From Bryoerythrophyllum caledonicum (Eukaryota > Streptophyta > Bryopsida > Pottiales > Pottiaceae), in contig OZ020518.1 of the NCBI GenBank assembly GCA_963971425.1, positions 31,564,770 to 31,628,769 of the forward strand: a DNA stretch of 64,000 bases, written 5' to 3'. The notes beneath the pieces were generated by a model. The model saw only the letters and a list, made by a program, of their open reading frames with translations. It ran no database searches and was not told the origin of the DNA. The position numbers and the translations under genes are program-made. The stretch's first letter is position 1; every line of letters starts with the position of its first letter. Below are positions 1,237-60,402 of the stretch, piece after piece.

Positions 1237-1427
1237 CCGTAGGCACATAGCAGGATCGTCACATCGCTGACGAATAATTTATTTTTCAAAAATAAGGTTT
1301 GTCAAGACGAATGTTCTCCAGAAACCCATGTTTTCCCGCAAATTTTTGTTTTTGAAAAATAATTTCCCAAAAATTTCATGATTTATTTTCAGAATTAATT
1401 GGTGATGAACCTGCTATGTGGCTACGG
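1237..1427. mobile_element. Small inverted-repeat element (MITE-like), copy 1
   Basis: The 191-bp segment has imperfect terminal inverted repeats of about 27 bp (1,237-1,263 against 1,401-1,427), both carrying CACATAGCAGG or its near match. A second, inner inverted repeat lies in its AT-rich core (TTATTTTTCAAAAA against TTTTTGAAAAATAA). It sits about 10 bp after the AATAAA of gene A. No clear target duplication is visible. A 28-bp direct repeat with two mismatches flanks it at 1,174-1,201 and 1,468-1,495. Confidence 0.55.
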
Positions 1428-1495
1428 TTCTTGCGTCAAAAAGAAAAAGAAAAAGGAAAATGAGAGCCCAGCACCTGAGGGACAACGCCAGTAAT

Positions 1496-3271
1496 GGATC
1501 CAGCTACACTACTGTACTGTACTTCTGAAAGAGAATGTAGAGATAGTCCACTCTTGTACACAACATTATCACCCCACCCTGGATCCCTCACTACACGAAC
1601 TCTCTTGATCAGATTCCTTGTTTTCATTGAATTGGGTCTGCGGAATAATACTACAGGATATTGCGCTTGGAGATGCTGAACCGCAAGCAGCAGGTTTACC
1701 GATGGCAGCTGATGGTCTAAATTGTGGAGACAAAGCTAGGTAAGCAGAACGTGTTAGAGTTCAAAGAGTTTCACATGTATACACGTACGTCAAGTTGCAC
1801 AATGGGAGTTGCAGTACTGTACGATCATAGCTTGTTGTGCATCATTTGCTTTTTTGTCAAAAATCTTTCTCCCTAATCTAATTCATGAGCTAATTGATGA
1901 CAGTTTCAACTGATAACGACTAACCAGTTGACAGCTTCAACTAATTGTTCAAAGATTTCATTTGAAACACATGAATTTTTATGAGTATCCTTTTAGTGAA
2001 AAGTTAATGCGGGTATATGGAGAATATGTCCCATGATTCTCATATTTTTGCAATTTTGAGTTGAGTCCCAACCTGAACTATCTAAATTATTGCAATCATG
2101 CATGAATCTGAAGCAACTTGAATCTTCATTTATATTGTCTAGAAAATAAACTTACATAACAAGTGCTTCATGTTAATAGAAACCATGTGAATAGAAAGTG
2201 ATATTGCTATTCTGAAATTACTGCACGAACTTTGTGCAGCACTAAAATTTGATTGGAATAAGGTTGGTATATGATACCAAAGCTTCTGAATTCCACAAAA
2301 ACAAGGAAGTGTGATTACATTCAAATAAATATGGATGCGGGGAAATATTATTTTCCTAGCTAAAAGCTAACATCGGTTTTGGTTTCAAGGGTATAAGTTT
2401 CATCTACGTCTCATTTTCCTGTTACCTTGAGTTCATCTGTTTTTTGGACACTGAAGCTTGAGATATGATTTTTATTCAATAATTATTAAAAAAAAATCTA
2501 TTTATTTATTTTAACAATTTGCTTGGGTGTGGAAGACTTGTATAGAAATCAGATTATGAATGAGCTTCTTGGATTTGACCTGACAGTGCTTCGGGGGCGC
2601 CGGAAGATGAAGTTAAGCACCCATTGATTGAAGATCACCAGGTATTTCTTACTCTGCTAGAGTGCGGAGCAATGACGACCTTGTAATGCACCGATATAGT
2701 TTCATGTGCAACGTTCTACTTCTCTTCCAACCTTAAATTTATTGGCTATTAGCATCACATCAACAAGCATGTTTCGTGTCAGAATGATATAGGGTGCAAT
2801 GTCACGATGATAAGTGTCAAGTTCATGTGGGATATAACACATGTATAATGACAATTTCAATGTCAGCTTAATACCATAAGTAGAGAGCAAGGTAGTCAAG
2901 TCTCCGATGAAATTACTACTTCCACATAGAATTTTTGAAGTCTCAAGGTGGCATGTGTTGCTTTTTGTTGAAGAAATAAATCATTTTATGATGAACTTGC
3001 TTCCTACTCATTGTATTTGTGACGATGGAATGAATATGATATGAAAATGACATAAAAAGGACAATTCCTTCGAAATGATATTAAAATGAAATGCAATCAA
3101 AGTGACATAAAATGGCATAGAATCTGAATGACGTTAATTTCCAATATCCAAGTGAATGACCAGAGAGTGGTTGGATCATTTCCAACTACGAAATATGTTG
3201 TAGGGAAAAGGGTAACTGTCCCCCCATTGCTTGTTGCTTGTTTCTAACGAAATATTTATCTGTACGTGCAG
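1496..3271. other. Intergenic stretch between genes A and B
   Basis: No supported gene. It holds short AT-rich runs. A 100-bp GC-richer patch around 2,580-2,690 carries a GAAGTTAAGC string loosely like the A-box region of 5S rRNA but otherwise does not match. It probably includes the promoter and any non-coding 5' exon of gene B. The same holds for 26,763-28,538 in copy 2. Confidence 0.5.
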
Positions 3272-53762: not shown

Positions 53763-53782
53763 TGAAGGGTCATTTACACGTG
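53763..53782 (+). repeat. Target duplication and left terminal inverted repeat of Harbinger
   Basis: TGA (53,763-53,765) followed by the 17-bp repeat. A related motif CATTTACACTTGAGG recurs about 95 bp further in, near 53,857. Confidence 0.85.
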
Positions 53783-54417
53783 GAGCGGCCGAACCCACTT
53801 CTGCACCCATGTTTCTGCCCCCGCTCTCTCCACCCTTGTATTAAGCACCATTTTTCATTTACACTTGAGGTAGCCGCACTAGGGGCGGAAGGGTGAGTTT
53901 TTCAACAAGGAATACAGGATTAAATTGAAAGAATGATATGAAAATTAAGATTTGGTTTGTGGTCAACCTCTAAATGAAAGTAGAAATATTGGAAACAACA
54001 TAAGTGTGTTGTAATATGTGAATTTGGGGTCTTAAATAAAAACCTTTATAGCGAATGTATTTTATAAAAATATGTTATCAACACACACATGTTTTTTAGA
54101 ATTGAGAGAAAATTGTGTTTTTAATTGGAGATAATTAAGATTGGATGAAATTAATTCATGCACTACATAATAAAGGAAATGATTCTTAAAAAACATGCAA
54201 TTATTTCACGAAAATTGTGAAATGAAGACTACCATGGCATCGTTGATGCATTTTTCTTCAAATTTTTTTTTAAAACGGAATTTTGTTGAAAATCATTCTT
54301 TTATATTCAAGTAATATGAAATGAAACACTAATTTCTTATTTCAAATATAAAATATAGATGATTTTTTATTAAAAATATAAAATGGGCCAACATCTTTAT
54401 AGCCTTTTGATTAAATC

Positions 54418-54996
54418 TCATAATACAATCTTAGGAAATGGTATCATCTTCCTTTTCAAAATACAACTATACAAATGCGCACGCATTTGTGTCAACTTAT
54501 AACTTGCATTCTCAAAATCATTAAAGTATGCTATATCCACTGCTAAGGCAATGACATACAATCCACAAGATGACAAATCAGCTTGTTGTTGTACATGAAT
54601 GTACTTATATTCTATATTTTCAGGAATACCAAATCTACTCAAAATTTTAAAATCAATATCATGTCTACCCAAAGTGTCATATACATGACATTGATGAAAG
54701 AGATCGCTAGTGGGATTAAAGTATATTAACATCCAATGTATACCTTCTTTGTGATGAAAAAATTGGAGACAAGGTTTTAGCAATGGTGGTCTTGGCTTCT
54801 TCAAGTTGCCGTCAAAGCAAGTTTCATGAGGATGAAATCCTCTATGTACTAAAATATCATCATATAATATTTTAAACGCAACATCCATTATTGAAGTACT
54901 TAGCCATCCATCTTTTGACATCAAGATTTCTTGGTCTTCACTTGTCAAAATGGCTCCATCCACCAAATTCCTGTTAATCATGTTTAGTAAGACCAT
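54418..54996 (-). CDS. Ulp1/C48-like cysteine protease encoded by the Harbinger element
   Basis: The frame of 192 residues carries the C48 catalytic pattern in order: His87 in IHWMLIYF, Asp107 in HVYDTLG, Gln138 and Cys144 in QQQADLSSCGLYV, with Gln six residues before Cys as in Ulp1-type SUMO/deubiquitin-like proteases. The segment before His (DGWLSTSIMDVAFKILYDD) matches the start of such domains. The upstream ATG is uncertain: an acceptor-like TTACTAAACATGATTAACAG lies just inside the frame, so it may be a 3' exon of the preceding Myb/acidic gene, though the nearest donor (55,083) does not give a matching phase. The frame is intact to its stop. Proteases of this family occur in some MULE and Ginger transposons; for Harbinger it is unusual to my knowledge. 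Confidence 0.75.
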   Translation of the reverse strand: MVLLNMINRNLVDGAILTSEDQEILMSKDGWLSTSIMDVAFKILYDDILVHRGFHPHETCFDGNLKKPRPPLLKPCLQFFHHKEGIHWMLIYFNPTSDLFHQCHVYDTLGRHDIDFKILSRFGIPENIEYKYIHVQQQADLSSCGLYVIALAVDIAYFNDFENASYKLTQMRAHLYSCILKRKMIPFPKIVL

Positions 54997-55052
54997 ACGT
55001 CAGTACATTATGTTTAATATTTGAAAGATATACAAAACAATATGTATATATA

Positions 55053-56027
55053 TTATGGAAAAGTAGATTTATCACATGTTTTACCTTTCTCTTTTTTAAT
55101 GTCTGTATGTTTTTCTTCAATGTTTTTTTCTTTTTTAAGGTTGTCTCCAATAATTTGCACTTCTTCATCTATTAAAATTGTCTCTTCTTTATTTGTTGGA
55201 ATTCCACTTAATGCATAAATTAAACTTTGCATTCGTTTATCTTCCCGATCTTCTCTGATAGCCGCAACTTCCTTGTATGCAGCTACAAAAGAGTTTAAAT
55301 AATCATCTGACATCTCTGGATTTGTTTTCCTTCTTTTCCCTCTCCTTTTTTTTTGAGACAATTTTTGTCCAATAATTCCACGTGTTTCCTTTTGCAACAA
55401 CGAAGAACTCTCAGATTTTTCATTTACACCTTCTTTATCTCCAACTTCTCTATCGTCAACATTAATTTCCTCAATTTTTTCTTCTTCTTCTTCTCCTTGT
55501 TGTTGTTGTTGTTCTTCTTCATCTTTTCCTTCTATTTCAATTTCTTTACTTTCTTTTTCCATTTCTTCATTTGAATCCATTATTTTTTAAAATCTCATTG
55601 GTGAAGATTGTCCAGTGTCTTTGCCTCCAGGTATTCCAATAATTTTAGGATTAGATCTAATAATATCATCCATCCTTGAAAACAAATCCCAAGACGATTT
55701 CACACCCCCTGTTTGATTCTCCCCACTTCGCTCAGTTATATATCTGCGTGACAATGATTTCCATTTTGATTTGCATTGCTCCGCTGTTTTCAACTGACGA
55801 TCAATGATATTTTTACCTTCATTTACAACTATAGAACATTCCTGCCAATGGCGTTTTTTAAAATTTCCCATGTTAAGGTTTAAAAATTTATCATTATAAT
55901 ATGTCAAAAGAAGATTGATTTCTTGAAGGGTCCATATAGCTATGTCAGTTTTTCCTACTTTTTTACGACCCTCTGTAGGGCCTTTTTTGATGCCTTCTTT
56001 AATACTAACATCTTTTGAAGAAGCCAT
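55053..56027 (-). CDS. Harbinger Myb/SANT-like DNA-binding protein with acidic tail, split by one in-frame stop
   Basis: Residues about 27-125 of the first frame (56,027-55,587) form a trihelix-like Myb/SANT domain with tryptophans at 32, 61, 89 and 113 (IWTLQEINLLL, RHWQECS, KSKWKSLSRRY, SSWDLFSRMD). PIF/Harbinger elements normally pair such a protein with the transposase to bring it to the nucleus and to the element ends. One TAA follows residue 146, and six bases later an ATG reopens the same frame (55,580-55,053): a Glu/Gln-rich acidic stretch (EEEQQQQQGEEEEEK), a basic KKRRGKRRK patch and a helical tail. I read the TAA as a disabling change. Re-initiation at the nearby ATG is the alternative. 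Confidence 0.7.
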
Positions 56028-56426
56028 GAATTATAATGATATATTAAATAGGTGGATAAATAGGTAATCAATTATATTGGAATAATACCAAGAATATAAT
56101 CTCATGTATGTTTTTTATATAAATAATAAATAAATAAAATACTTACATGGTTTATATACTTTCAAATTTTTGAAATGAAAGTAAAATGAAATCTAAAATT
56201 ATAATATCTTTTACCAAAAAGTAAAATGAAATTTAAAATTAAAATTAAAATATTTTTTGCATAAAAGTAAAATGAAATGTGAAATTAAAATATCGTTTAC
56301 ATAAAAGTTACGGAGGTGCCCATAATCTAAAATCACAATACAAATGTATATTTAATATCTCTTAGTAAACTAAGAGAAAATCTCTAGAGCCATGAGCTCG
56401 ATTACAATGTTATAGTGGTGACAATT

Positions 56427-57761
56427 TCATTTTTTTTTTGCTATATTTTTCTTTGCCAATTGTCTTTTCAACTTCAAGCTTTCACTTTTGTATTTGTGTA
56501 TAAGCCAATTCTCAAATAAGACTTCCCTATTTTGCTTAGCGATATTTTCTGATATTTTTTCAACCTCTAGAATGAATTTTGAGGGTATGGCTTTAGTAGA
56601 ATTAAGTTCGTTATCAAAGTCATCGCTACCAACATCTCCTTCTTCAATTAAGAAGTTATGGAGTATACAACAAGTTGTGACTATTGTTGGAGCATATTCT
56701 AATTTAACATTCATATTTTTTAATATTTGAAACTTCATTTAAAGAATTCCAAACGCATTTTCAATTTTAACTCTACCAGCTCTCCACTTCCTATCAAATA
56801 AATCTTTTTTTGGATCTCCACTTTTAGTAGTATTATAACATTTCATTAATCCGTTCCGTAGAGGATATGCAGAGTCTCCAAGCAAATATGGTTGGATGTT
56901 TTTCCCATTTACTTTGTAAACTTGATTATGTGGAAGCTGGTCTGATTGAAGCATTTTCCACAATAAAGACGATCGAAGGTGGACAGCATCATGGCAACCT
57001 CCAGGTGCTTGTACACAAACATTTAAAAATCGCCGCCTATAATCACAAACACCTTGTAATAATATCGAGTGAAATTTCAAACGATTAAAATAGTCGGCAG
57101 GAATTTGTTGTGTAGTTGGTTTTCTAGCCAAGCGTATATGACTTCCGTCAATTGCTCCCCACATATACGGTATTCCAGTTAAATTTTCAAAACCCATCAT
57201 AATGTCTTGTAATTCATCACCTTCTGGAATACGGATGTAACGATTATGAAATTGGTTCACTAAAACTTGACAAATTTTATGGGTGAACTTGGATGTGGTT
57301 GCAGCCGATACACCCAAGTAATGACCACCAATGTATACAGAGCCACCATATGCCAATCTATGCAAAACAATAGCTAGAACTTTATCATTGGGAATTGGGT
57401 CCCTCATATCTGTCTTTTGTTTGGTGATGAATGGAGACAACATTTCGACAAGTTTATAAAATTGCCTATGAGTCATTCTAAACTCTTTTGTCCAACGGCT
57501 ATCTAAAAGATCCCCTCTACGCATCCACTCTTTTGTGCAAATTTCTTCCCATAATACTTTTTGCCAATAGTCCAACCACATAGTTCTATTTGGAAGATAA
57601 TATCGTGGTTTTGGAATAGATGAGAATGGAGATAAAAATAAGAGAAATATGAGCACATAAAATCCATCATTGTCATCTGAGACTCTTTTTTGTCTTCCTC
57701 TCAAATATATGTTAATCAATTGTTTGCAATGTTTAAATCTAGGTGTACTAATTCTTGCCAT
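56427..57761 (-). CDS. Harbinger DDE transposase (DDE_Tnp_4 family), split by one in-frame stop
   Basis: The start at 57,761 (MARISTPRF) was chosen over an upstream ATG at 57,842 because the first 27 residues are a hydrophobic run typical of translated AT-rich leader, with an AG acceptor-like site just before. The three catalytic acids are present: Asp205 in WGAIDGSHI, Asp296 in LLGDSAYPL and Glu334 in KIENAFGIL. The N-terminal helix-turn-helix region (RMTHRQFYKLVEML) and the ATTSKFTHKICQVL segment match HARBI1-like transposases. A TAA after FGIL is followed at once by ATG in the same frame and the normal C-terminus (APTIVTTCCILHNFLIEEGD), so a single nonsense change splits an otherwise complete 444-residue protein. 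Confidence 0.85.
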
Positions 57762-57842
57762 TGCCACCAATGTTTTAGATTCTAAGAAAATAAAATAAAA
57801 TCCAATATATTTAGTGAATATAACAAATATAACATTGCACAT

Positions 57843-59039
57843 TTATAATATTTATATTGGTCATAGAAGTAAAAGAGTCGATTTTATACTTAATTTCCAT
57901 TCACTTTATAAAATTAGAATTTAAAATTGATTACTTTTAATTTAGACCATTTAATCTTAAAGTAAAAAACTTTTACTTTGTATTTTTAATTTAATAAAAT
58001 TGTTAAAATATGAACTTGATAAGACTTATCATGTTGTAATTGTGTCCTTTTTACTTTAAGGCAACTTTCAAATTTTCCAGTCGTATTTTTTTAAACTTGC
58101 AACTCATAGAGTCAAAATTATAATTGAATTTAAAAAATTTTGAAATGGAGTTTAACCCCCAAAGGACCACGACCACTTTCGCTCTAAAACGAGTCCAAAA
58201 CTACAACTGCCAAAAAGAGACATGAAAATCACATTTTAAAGTGAATTTTGGATTTTCAACCATAAGATCGTAAAATAGACTTCTATATAAACATGCCATA
58301 AAATTTTGGTTGCATTCCACCGCACAGATTGATAGATTTTAGTGTATAGAGTCAAAACAATTTCACGTTTTATTTTTTTGTGAACTACGTATGTATTCAA
58401 ATGATAATCCAAACGGTCAATAAGAAGGTTTTCACCACATATTGTTGTTGAAAAAATAAAAAGTTAAAAGTATGAAGATCTCTAGGTTTTATGTAGAAAA
58501 AATGATTTTTTTCCCCCCGTTGCTCGAAAATGTGTGAAAATGTTTGACTTGGAATAAAATGCCTTTCTACACTAAAGACAATTTTTTTTGGTAAATTTCC
58601 AAAAACAAGAATATTCTTTATATGTGTGAAAAATCTCAATGTCAATAGAAACTTTTGTCAAAAATATTGGAGGTGCCCGGAGTCCCCACTTTTGGCTATA
58701 AGTGGTACTAACTTTCAAACAACAAATCCAAAAGTTAAAATTAAAATATATCCACGAAGCTCTTATCAAAGGATATCTTGTATAAAATTTTCAATTAAAA
58801 AGAATTTTTTTTCGAATCGTAGGTACATGCCCAAAATCCAATTTGACCCCGGGGGGACGTTGGGTCCCTTAGGGGTTAAAGTAATCTTGCTATTGAAAGT
58901 AGTAAATAAGAGTCCCCTCAACCTTACCGCACCCACTTCGTTGCACCCGCACCCACTCTTGCACCCGCTTGCCGCCCCCTCCTACAAACTTGGAGACTAA
59001 AAAAAGTAAACCCTCTTGCACCCGCACCCTCTTCTGCCT
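57843..59039. other. Non-coding right arm of Harbinger
   Basis: No gene. It probably holds the transposase promoter and subterminal protein-binding motifs (GCACCC repeats at 58,930-59,030). The piece 58,700-58,880 has a diverged match at 22,690-22,860. Confidence 0.5.
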
Positions 59040-59059
59040 CACGTGTAAATGACCCTTGA
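59040..59059 (-). repeat. Right terminal inverted repeat and target duplication of Harbinger
   Basis: A perfect complement of the left repeat followed by TGA (59,057-59,059). Motifs of the form TTGCACCCGCACCC recur near 58,950, 58,965 and 59,020. Confidence 0.85.
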
Positions 59060-59128: not shown

Positions 59129-60402
59129 TGTTAATACAGAATCCTAGTGTCACCATTGTACAGTAAACACTTTCATTTGGTTAGGTTTAGATCTAGATCG
59201 TACATCGTGTTGCAGTGCCTCCGCTGCCCTTTGACTTTTAGCTCCACCCTTATTGCATTGAAGGACTTTGCTTCTCTGGCATTATTATCTTCTCTATTGC
59301 ACAATCTATCATGGTATCAGAGCGCAGGTTCTGGCTCTCACCTAGTGTGTAAGTAGATCTAGATCTGTAGTGCACATCTAGCATGGCGAACTCTGAGGAG
59401 AGCAACAGGGTCGTTGAAGAATCGTCAGAGCTAGGCACTAACCTCCCACCATACACCACTCCTAGGAGAGACATAGAAATCACGATTCCAAAAACCAGTA
59501 GATTGGATGGACGTGTGAACTATCAGGTGTGGTCTTATAGGCTAAAGCGCTTACTAGAGAGGAACAAAGTGTGGATCTATTGCACCGAATTTAGATCTAG
59601 AAATGCAGTTGCAGTAGAAAAAGAATGGAGAAATATCGCTTTGTAGGTGATCACAGACTCAGTCAAGGACTCCGTGATACCTATTGTATGCAGATTTGAA
59701 GATCCACATCTCTCGTGGAAGGCGCTCGAGGACCGCTATCAATCCAATTCTAGATCACGGAGGCTCATGCTGCTGCGAACATTGGTGTCACTGCGGAAGG
59801 AAGATGGCACAAGCATGGAGCAATATGTTACTGAGGTCAAGGATGTTATGGACCAGCTTAAAGGTATGGAGGTAGAAATTCCTGAAGATCTACGCACCTT
59901 GTTACTGCTAAACTCTTTGTCATCCGAATACAAGTTATTCTGCAGGACACAGACAGGAAGAGACACCTTACCATCTTTTTTGGAGATAGAGTTAGGCGTG
60001 CTTGATGAAGAGATGCAGCCGAGAATGGACGCACAAGCCTTGGTATTCAAGAAACAATTACGACATCAAGGAGATAGAACAAAGAGCGGCGGAGGAGCGC
60101 AGGAGCAAGACAACAGAGCGCGAGAGCAAGATGGAACGTGGGCACAAGGCGGCGCAACACATGTGAAAGGCGGCGGAGCACAAGGGCGAGACAACAGAAG
60201 ACGTGGGGGTAGTCGACGCCTCCCTACTCGAAACCCTACCACGAGTGGCGCCCGTGACTACAGTAGGTCCTACGACCGTGGACATGGCCGCGATGGACAT
60301 GGCCGAGGGCATATCACAGGAGGATACTCCAGTGAAGAGGGACAGGAGTGCCACTACTGTGGTGAGCCTAGGCACATTGCCCGGGAGTGCATTAGGAAGG
60401 CC
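59129..60402 (+). mobile_element. Copia element, 5' LTR and gag, running into the N gap
   Basis: A short probable LTR (59,129-59,311, TGTTAATAC ... CTATCA) is followed by a primer site TGGTATCAGAGCGCAGG (59,312-59,328) complementary to initiator tRNA-Met. Gag starts near 59,383 (UBN2-type gag with SRLDGRVNYQVWSYRLKRLL and RYQSNSRSRRLMLLRTL), has an Arg/Gly/Gln-rich linker and a CCHC knuckle (CHYCGEPRHIARECI, near 60,350-60,395), and is cut by the N run. The visible part has very few breaks, so it is fairly young. It begins only about 70 bp from the Harbinger target site. Confidence 0.85.

Follow-up and report, generated by a model that had tools for sequence, protein, structure and literature searches.

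A PIF/Harbinger-like transposon family of Bryoerythrophyllum caledonicum with a Myb/SANT protein and a probable Ulp1-like protease between its ends

Organization of the element

The window analyzed here is a stretch of 64,000 nt from the moss Bryoerythrophyllum caledonicum (contig OZ020518.1, positions 31,564,770 to 31,628,769; C6:31564770-31628769 in the coordinates used below), taken from a genome of 437 Mb. It harbors a DDE transposon at 53766-59056, and the genes of this element, comprising a transposase, a Myb/SANT frame, a charged frame and a candidate protease frame, are all located on the minus strand. In many copies across the genome the protease is located between the same inverted repeats. 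The features of the element are given below in window coordinates.

53763..53765, no strand, left target-site duplication, TGA, identical to the right flank
53766..53782, plus strand, left terminal inverted repeat (TIR) of 17 bp, AGGGTCATTTACACGTG, with its exact reverse complement at the right end
53803..53808, plus strand, lone GCACCC close to the left end, by motif position
53855..53873, plus strand, inner near-copy of the inverted repeat, TCATTTACACTTG..., repeat pair at 89%
54418..54970, minus strand, predicted exon 2 of open reading frame 1 (ORF1), Ulp1-like protease by its catalytic pattern
54736-54738, 54676-54678, 54583-54585 and 54565-54567, minus strand, putative catalytic His, Asp, Gln and Cys of the protease, by pattern
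54971..55084, minus strand, putative intron of 114 nt, GT...AG, AT-rich, with TACTAAAC before the acceptor, by site conservation among copies
55085..56027, minus strand, predicted exon 1 of ORF1, Myb/SANT domain (55662-55934; PF13837, E 4e-13) followed by a charged linker
56427..57761, minus strand, DDE transposase (Pfam DDE_Tnp_4, E 4.5e-12; Plant_tran, E 2e-10)
57147-57149, 56874-56876 and 56760-56762, minus strand, catalytic Asp, Asp and Glu of the transposase (D, D, E triad)
58929..59029, plus strand, six GCACCC just inside the right end, candidate binding sites
59040..59056, minus strand, right TIR of 17 bp, perfect match to the left repeat
59057..59059, no strand, right target-site duplication, TGA, identical to the left flank

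An earlier reading of this DNA from its letters alone (the original prediction) had proposed perfect 17-bp inverted repeats with a TGA duplication, a DDE transposase with three catalytic acids, a Myb/SANT protein and a frame with the pattern His-Asp-Gln-x5-Cys. Each of these was recovered: the ends with their duplication at 53763-59059, the transposase by its Pfam matches and the residues D232, D323 and E361, the Myb/SANT protein by PF13837, and the protease pattern as H88, D108, Q139 and C145 of the frame 54418-54999 (minus).

The TIR starts with AGGG directly after the 3-bp duplication. Identical 3-bp flanks were found in 11 of 15 family copies having both ends; read towards the element, TGA or TCA (TSA) is present at 41 of 45 flanks and TAA at one. 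The base next outward of the duplication is C at 28 of the 45 ends, compared with 17% C in the fetched loci, which is a preference and not a rule. In the window copy, six GCACCC repeats lie in the last 130 bp before the right end, and a single one is located near the left end; these repeats are possible binding sites.

Class assignment

The transposase matches DDE_Tnp_4 and Plant_tran and shows the triad spacing D232-90-D323-37-E361. Together with the short TIRs and the short target duplication, this corresponds to the PHIS superfamily, which has been described with a transposase plus Myb/SANT or YqaJ genes in the available text of the PHIS survey (PMC4482050). According to the same text, the PIF/Harbinger group is defined by a TWA duplication and NuwaII by C|TNA|G, with GG at the start of the TIR in most NuwaII families. 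The transposase found no match in a plasmid collection, which fits a plant-type element.

PIF/Harbinger elements sensu stricto share with the element the Pfam DDE families and a Myb/SANT protein as ORF1, but the duplication here is not TWA, 41 of 45 ends having TGA or TCA, and the available text of PMC4482050 gives them two plain ORFs and describes no protease. Because of this duplication, we file the element outside PIF/Harbinger sensu stricto. To NuwaII, as described in that text, it is linked by the DDE transposase and Myb/SANT genes, a TIR within the range of 13-46 bp, and a TNA duplication that tends to have C on its outer side. It differs in the middle base of the duplication, for which G or C is used at nearly every end. 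The TIR starts with AGGG, compared with GG in most NuwaII families; moreover, the words "protease" and "peptidase" are absent from the main text of PMC4482050. We thus place the element in the PHIS superfamily (PIF/Harbinger-like), with a NuwaII-like target as judged by its duplication rather than by a transposase tree.

The protease as a standing part of the family

The exact 17-bp TIR occurs 37 times in the genome, compared with no occurrence of the reversed control, and the left 135 bp give 40 genome matches with 93-100% identity. The transposase matches listed number 112, with 111 of 944 candidates scored; all family counts among them are therefore lower bounds, and the 69 transposases outside the family are part only of those in the genome. 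On this basis, the family comprises at least 43 transposase matches (67-100% identity) in 34 clusters. A protease is located within 6 kb of the transposase in 30 of these 34 clusters, and in 28 of the 30 it is on the same strand; the clusters without a nearby protease are C4:20515393, C9:2389099, C9:15277683 and C10:5128257. Among the 69 other Harbinger-type transposases (34-41% identity), two have a family-type protease within 10 kb, and both of these transposases lie outside the ends of an adjoining family copy. In one of the other elements (L066), Myb frame and transposase are on opposite strands, and no protease match was obtained.

The protease itself has 70 genome matches in 48 clusters. 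For 19 of these clusters, among them deletion derivatives and older relatives, the matches listed include no family transposase at a distance of up to 6 kb. Capture at this locus only is rejected by these numbers. Host C48 genes as recent donors were likewise dismissed, as the 25 PF02902 matches are all more than 10 kb away from any family transposase listed. Several copies sharing these parts between the same ends exist in this genome, which the original prediction had named as support, and neither of the outcomes that it named as fatal, a family lacking the protease or a host gene captured at one locus, was encountered.

Several shorter copies belong to the family. Two derivatives of 1.7 kb (L068 and L069) have a common internal deletion, a mutual identity of 97.6% and intact ends, lack the second gene, and look like non-autonomous elements that may have been moved in trans. 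Further short derivatives are indicated by exact TIR pairs 1.4-1.8 kb apart at C8:13595941-13597689, C14:18023981-18025698 and C1:3152359-3153726. At C14:4607315-4609323 (L022) and C3:22077572-22079580 (L016), derivatives of 2009 bp with an identical deletion junction have kept the protease exon and lost the transposase and Myb parts; given the common junction, a protease-only derivative seems to have been moved in trans. Outside the family, a single Harbinger-type transposase among the matches listed, at C6:19527029, is less than 10 kb away from a PF02902 match (C6:19534083), which is either a chance neighbor or a second case; a Myb match is located at C6:19523819.

State of the window copy

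The window copy is defective in both genes. One in-frame stop interrupts its transposase at 56739-56741, and a second separates the Myb frame from the charged frame at 55587-55589. In addition, the protease exon has lost 4 bp close to its start, which shifts the frame; this deletion is absent in 19 of 19 other aligned copies. That the stops represent true gene ends was considered and is not supported, as most other copies are open at both sites: the transposase site is a sense codon in 14, a stop in three and an indel in three of 20 distinct copies, and the site between Myb and linker is open in 14, a stop in four and frameshifted in three of 21.

Identity of the candidate protease

In its strict form, the pattern reads HW-x(13-26)-D[ST][LM]-x(20-70)-Q-x5-CG. 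It was not reached by any of 20,000 shuffles of the window protease and had no match elsewhere in the window, where the open stretches of all six frames amount to 111,218 residues. When 15 aligned members were compared with 24,736 Pfam models, the two models matched by most members were Peptidase_C5 (eight members, best E 0.016) and Peptidase_C48 (two members, best E 0.15), all of these matches being weak. Families C5 and C48 both belong to clan CE. The residue spacing agrees with that of Ulp1, SENP2 and C48 fragments of the same genome. In a profile comparison against these proteins, the His, Asp, Gln and Cys residues line up when a full alignment is forced, and the score of 21.8 was reached by one of 100 column shuffles. 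The protein is probably Ulp1-like and of clan CE. Since the Pfam profile matches are weak, so is the C48 assignment, and we do not file the protein as a proven C48 member.

ORF1 as a putative Myb-linker-protease fusion

Myb and charged linker form one uninterrupted frame in 14 of the 21 distinct copies compared. Exon 1 comprises 314 codons and is stop-free in three of 12 copies (C12:16245208, C3:29407426 and C9:10964100); as a query, its 314 residues give several full-length genome matches. It ends with AAAG|GTAAAA, and the GT donor is present in 17 of the 18 copies having the motif. The protease exon starts with AACAG|G, its acceptor being AG in 14, AA in five and AT in three of 22 copies, and the branch-like string CTTACTAAA is found upstream of the acceptor in 19 of the 22. 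The intervening sequences of 18 copies are 91-115 nt in length with 74-79% AT. In indel-free copies the exons join in phase, and stops are located just upstream of exon 2. Based on these sites, the working form of the element would most likely be two genes on one strand, the transposase and a spliced ORF1 encoding Myb, linker and protease, rather than three; we regard this reading as a whole, including the predicted splicing and the role proposed below, as about evenly balanced between right and wrong.

Within the aligned regions of both genes, C-to-T changes in family copies amount to 136 of 1779 CG, 140 of 1696 CHG and 354 of 16950 CHH sites. The CG and CHG rates, about four times the CHH rate, are a sign of past plant-type DNA methylation. 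As the CAG acceptor is a CHG site, decay at methylated sites can explain the five AA acceptors, but not the three AT cases.

Older relatives and constraint on the protease

Older relatives, all of them decayed, were found at six loci (L059-L063 and L065); in the longer matches their proteins are about 31-59% identical. Myb, linker and protease follow in order in L060 and L062, linker and protease are present in L063, and L065 contains a transposase piece and the protease. The protease of these relatives has a pooled ratio of nonsynonymous to synonymous differences (pN/pS) of 0.58, compared with 0.71-0.77 in 18 settings of a neutral simulation, and seven of eight high-scoring segment pairs (HSPs) show values of 0.65 or less, compared with 17-32% of the simulated ones. 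The sample comprises eight HSPs from six loci, which are few and not all independent, and the simulation itself showed that choosing HSPs by protein similarity pushes pN/pS below 1 even without selection. The values suggest modest past constraint on the protease before decay.

Alternative readings

Several observations weigh against a functional protease joined to the Myb protein, and they bear on different parts of this interpretation. Regarding the enzyme itself, the window protein has no C48 match at E <= 1 and no member was seen to pass the cut-off of C48 or another Pfam model, sequence searches of the PDB returned no protease, a single-sequence structure model was unusable with a mean pLDDT of 36.5, and the hhalign probability was 5.8% against Ulp1, SENP2 and the host C48 fragments and 12% against Ulp1 and SENP2 alone. 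The C-terminal domain of ORF1 could then resemble the Ulp1 pattern by chance and be no protease at all. We consider this quite improbable, given that C5 and C48 were the Pfam models matched by most members, that the spacing is as in Ulp1, SENP2 and the host fragments, and that so few column shuffles attained the profile score. Regarding its use, the nonsynonymous-to-synonymous ratios within the young family show no signal of selection, lying close to the neutral value or above it in all four regions (Myb, linker, protease and transposase), and by eye the catalytic residues of the older relatives are kept no better than their neighbors. The protease exon may accordingly have been picked up once by the family ancestor and carried along without function, as is common for sequences captured by plant elements in the available texts of PMC2528002 and PMC13317346; some deletion derivatives lack the protease, as do the surroundings of the four transposase loci listed above. 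Passive cargo of this kind nevertheless seems unlikely to us. The transposase and Myb parts are equally neutral within the family, so that the test does not single out the protease; the arrangement is common to the older relatives, and the pN/pS values of their protease fall below those of the neutral simulations.

The division of the minus-strand frames into genes is affected by a third group of observations: all 12 copies spliced in silico contain stops or frameshifts, the acceptor is not AG in eight of 22 copies, and an ATG stands early in the protease frame, shortly past the acceptor. The unspliced Myb-linker frame stops about ten codons past the donor, and open frames of 325 are present in several copies. 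These points would fit three separate genes. Besides the transposase, one gene would then encode Myb and linker, with about 325 residues, and another the protease by itself, with about 180 residues from the ATG within its own exon. The conserved GT donor, the branch-like string, the agreement in phase and the stops just upstream of the acceptor argue for splicing instead, and the losses of the acceptor to AA, unlike those to AT, are explicable by CHG decay. In addition, the three residues preceding the first Met in exon 2 are matched by L062, in which Ile takes the place of this Met. The splice sites of the older relatives make no decision between two and three genes, as both are changed in L062 and L059 keeps the GT with the acceptor lost. 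Three genes are a serious candidate, yet one that we hold to be somewhat on the unlikely side. The "three-gene Harbinger lineage" of the original prediction accordingly holds for the protease as a standing part; two genes are likelier than three, and the lineage falls outside PIF/Harbinger sensu stricto.

Known carriers of Ulp1-like proteases

A literature search found no PIF/Harbinger element with Ulp1, C48, SUMO or a cysteine protease, with most subscription papers and Repbase lying outside its scope. In other transposons such domains are documented, and the following comparisons refer to the available parts of the cited texts. The Vandal MULEs of Arabidopsis have an accessory protein with a Ulp1 domain, the Ulp1-carrying VANC (KIU), but belong to the Mutator superfamily and are without TIRs (PMC13317346). 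Ulp1-type domains are found repeatedly inside plant DNA transposons, as in the MULE and CACTA elements of grapevine; these represent other superfamilies, and the PIF elements there have other captured sequences, with ULP1 not reported (PMC2528002). CryptonF and CryptonS are likewise mobile elements carrying a C48-type peptidase, but are tyrosine-recombinase elements of oomycetes and diatoms (PMC3212892).

Possible role of the protease

The ORF1 of PIF/Harbinger elements is required for DNA binding according to the available text of PMC12595863. In the same way, the Myb/SANT part might bind the element's own ends and bring the fused protease there. The protease could then strip SUMO or a similar modifier from the transposase complex or from host silencing proteins and would serve the element as an accessory or anti-silencing factor. 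DNA binding, substrate and benefit are all putative and drawn by analogy. In its most specific version, ORF1 would be a self-targeting anti-silencing enzyme whose Myb/SANT domain recognizes the own ends, perhaps at the GCACCC repeats, and whose protease removes SUMO or a relative from silencing proteins, an independent invention of the possible role of Ulp1-VANC; we put this forward tentatively, as a rather doubtful proposal. To our knowledge, VANC is not a Myb/SANT protein. The available text of the review PMC13317346 presents the VANC proteins with a Ulp1 domain, found in Vandal elements, as sequence-specific anti-silencing factors which induce hypomethylation of related elements, and calls the function of this domain unknown. 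Weighing against the parallel, the searched text of two primary VANC papers (PMC5735166, PMC10398659) leaves Ulp unmentioned.

Ulp1-like proteases recur in unrelated transposons (MULE, CACTA and Crypton). If the fusion is real, the protease is tied to the element's own DNA-binding protein; this would suggest that it works at the DNA of the element, and would give a way to test what such proteases do in transposons. A superfamily described with a transposase plus Myb/SANT or YqaJ genes would also gain a protease.

Host-like C48-Myb genes and a neighboring frame

A combination of the two domains was also found in host-like genes. At L067 (C8:23149000-23155500), positions 1316-2119 (minus) form one exon with a canonical C48 end and a Myb/SANT-like domain. 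PF02902 and PF13837 matches on the same strand, 0.6-1.9 kb apart, were observed at C4:23807180/23807985, C4:23843351/23844165, C4:23911258/23913308 and C4:27398132/27399716, and further same-strand pairs at C8:23174096/23172493, C8:23217987/23216550, C8:24828496/24826875 and C2:37593332/37594116. L067 and similar pairs appear to be a host-like family of C48-Myb genes located in clusters. Like the predicted ORF1, they combine a C48 end with a Myb_DNA-bind_4 domain, here in one exon; in contrast to it, they have C48 first (the opposite order), the canonical QxNGxDCG, an arrangement in tandem clusters and no sequence match to the protease of the element.

Within the window, the frame at 59371-59646 (plus) to the right of the element and the frame next to it resemble by eye a Copia-type gag with a zinc knuckle.

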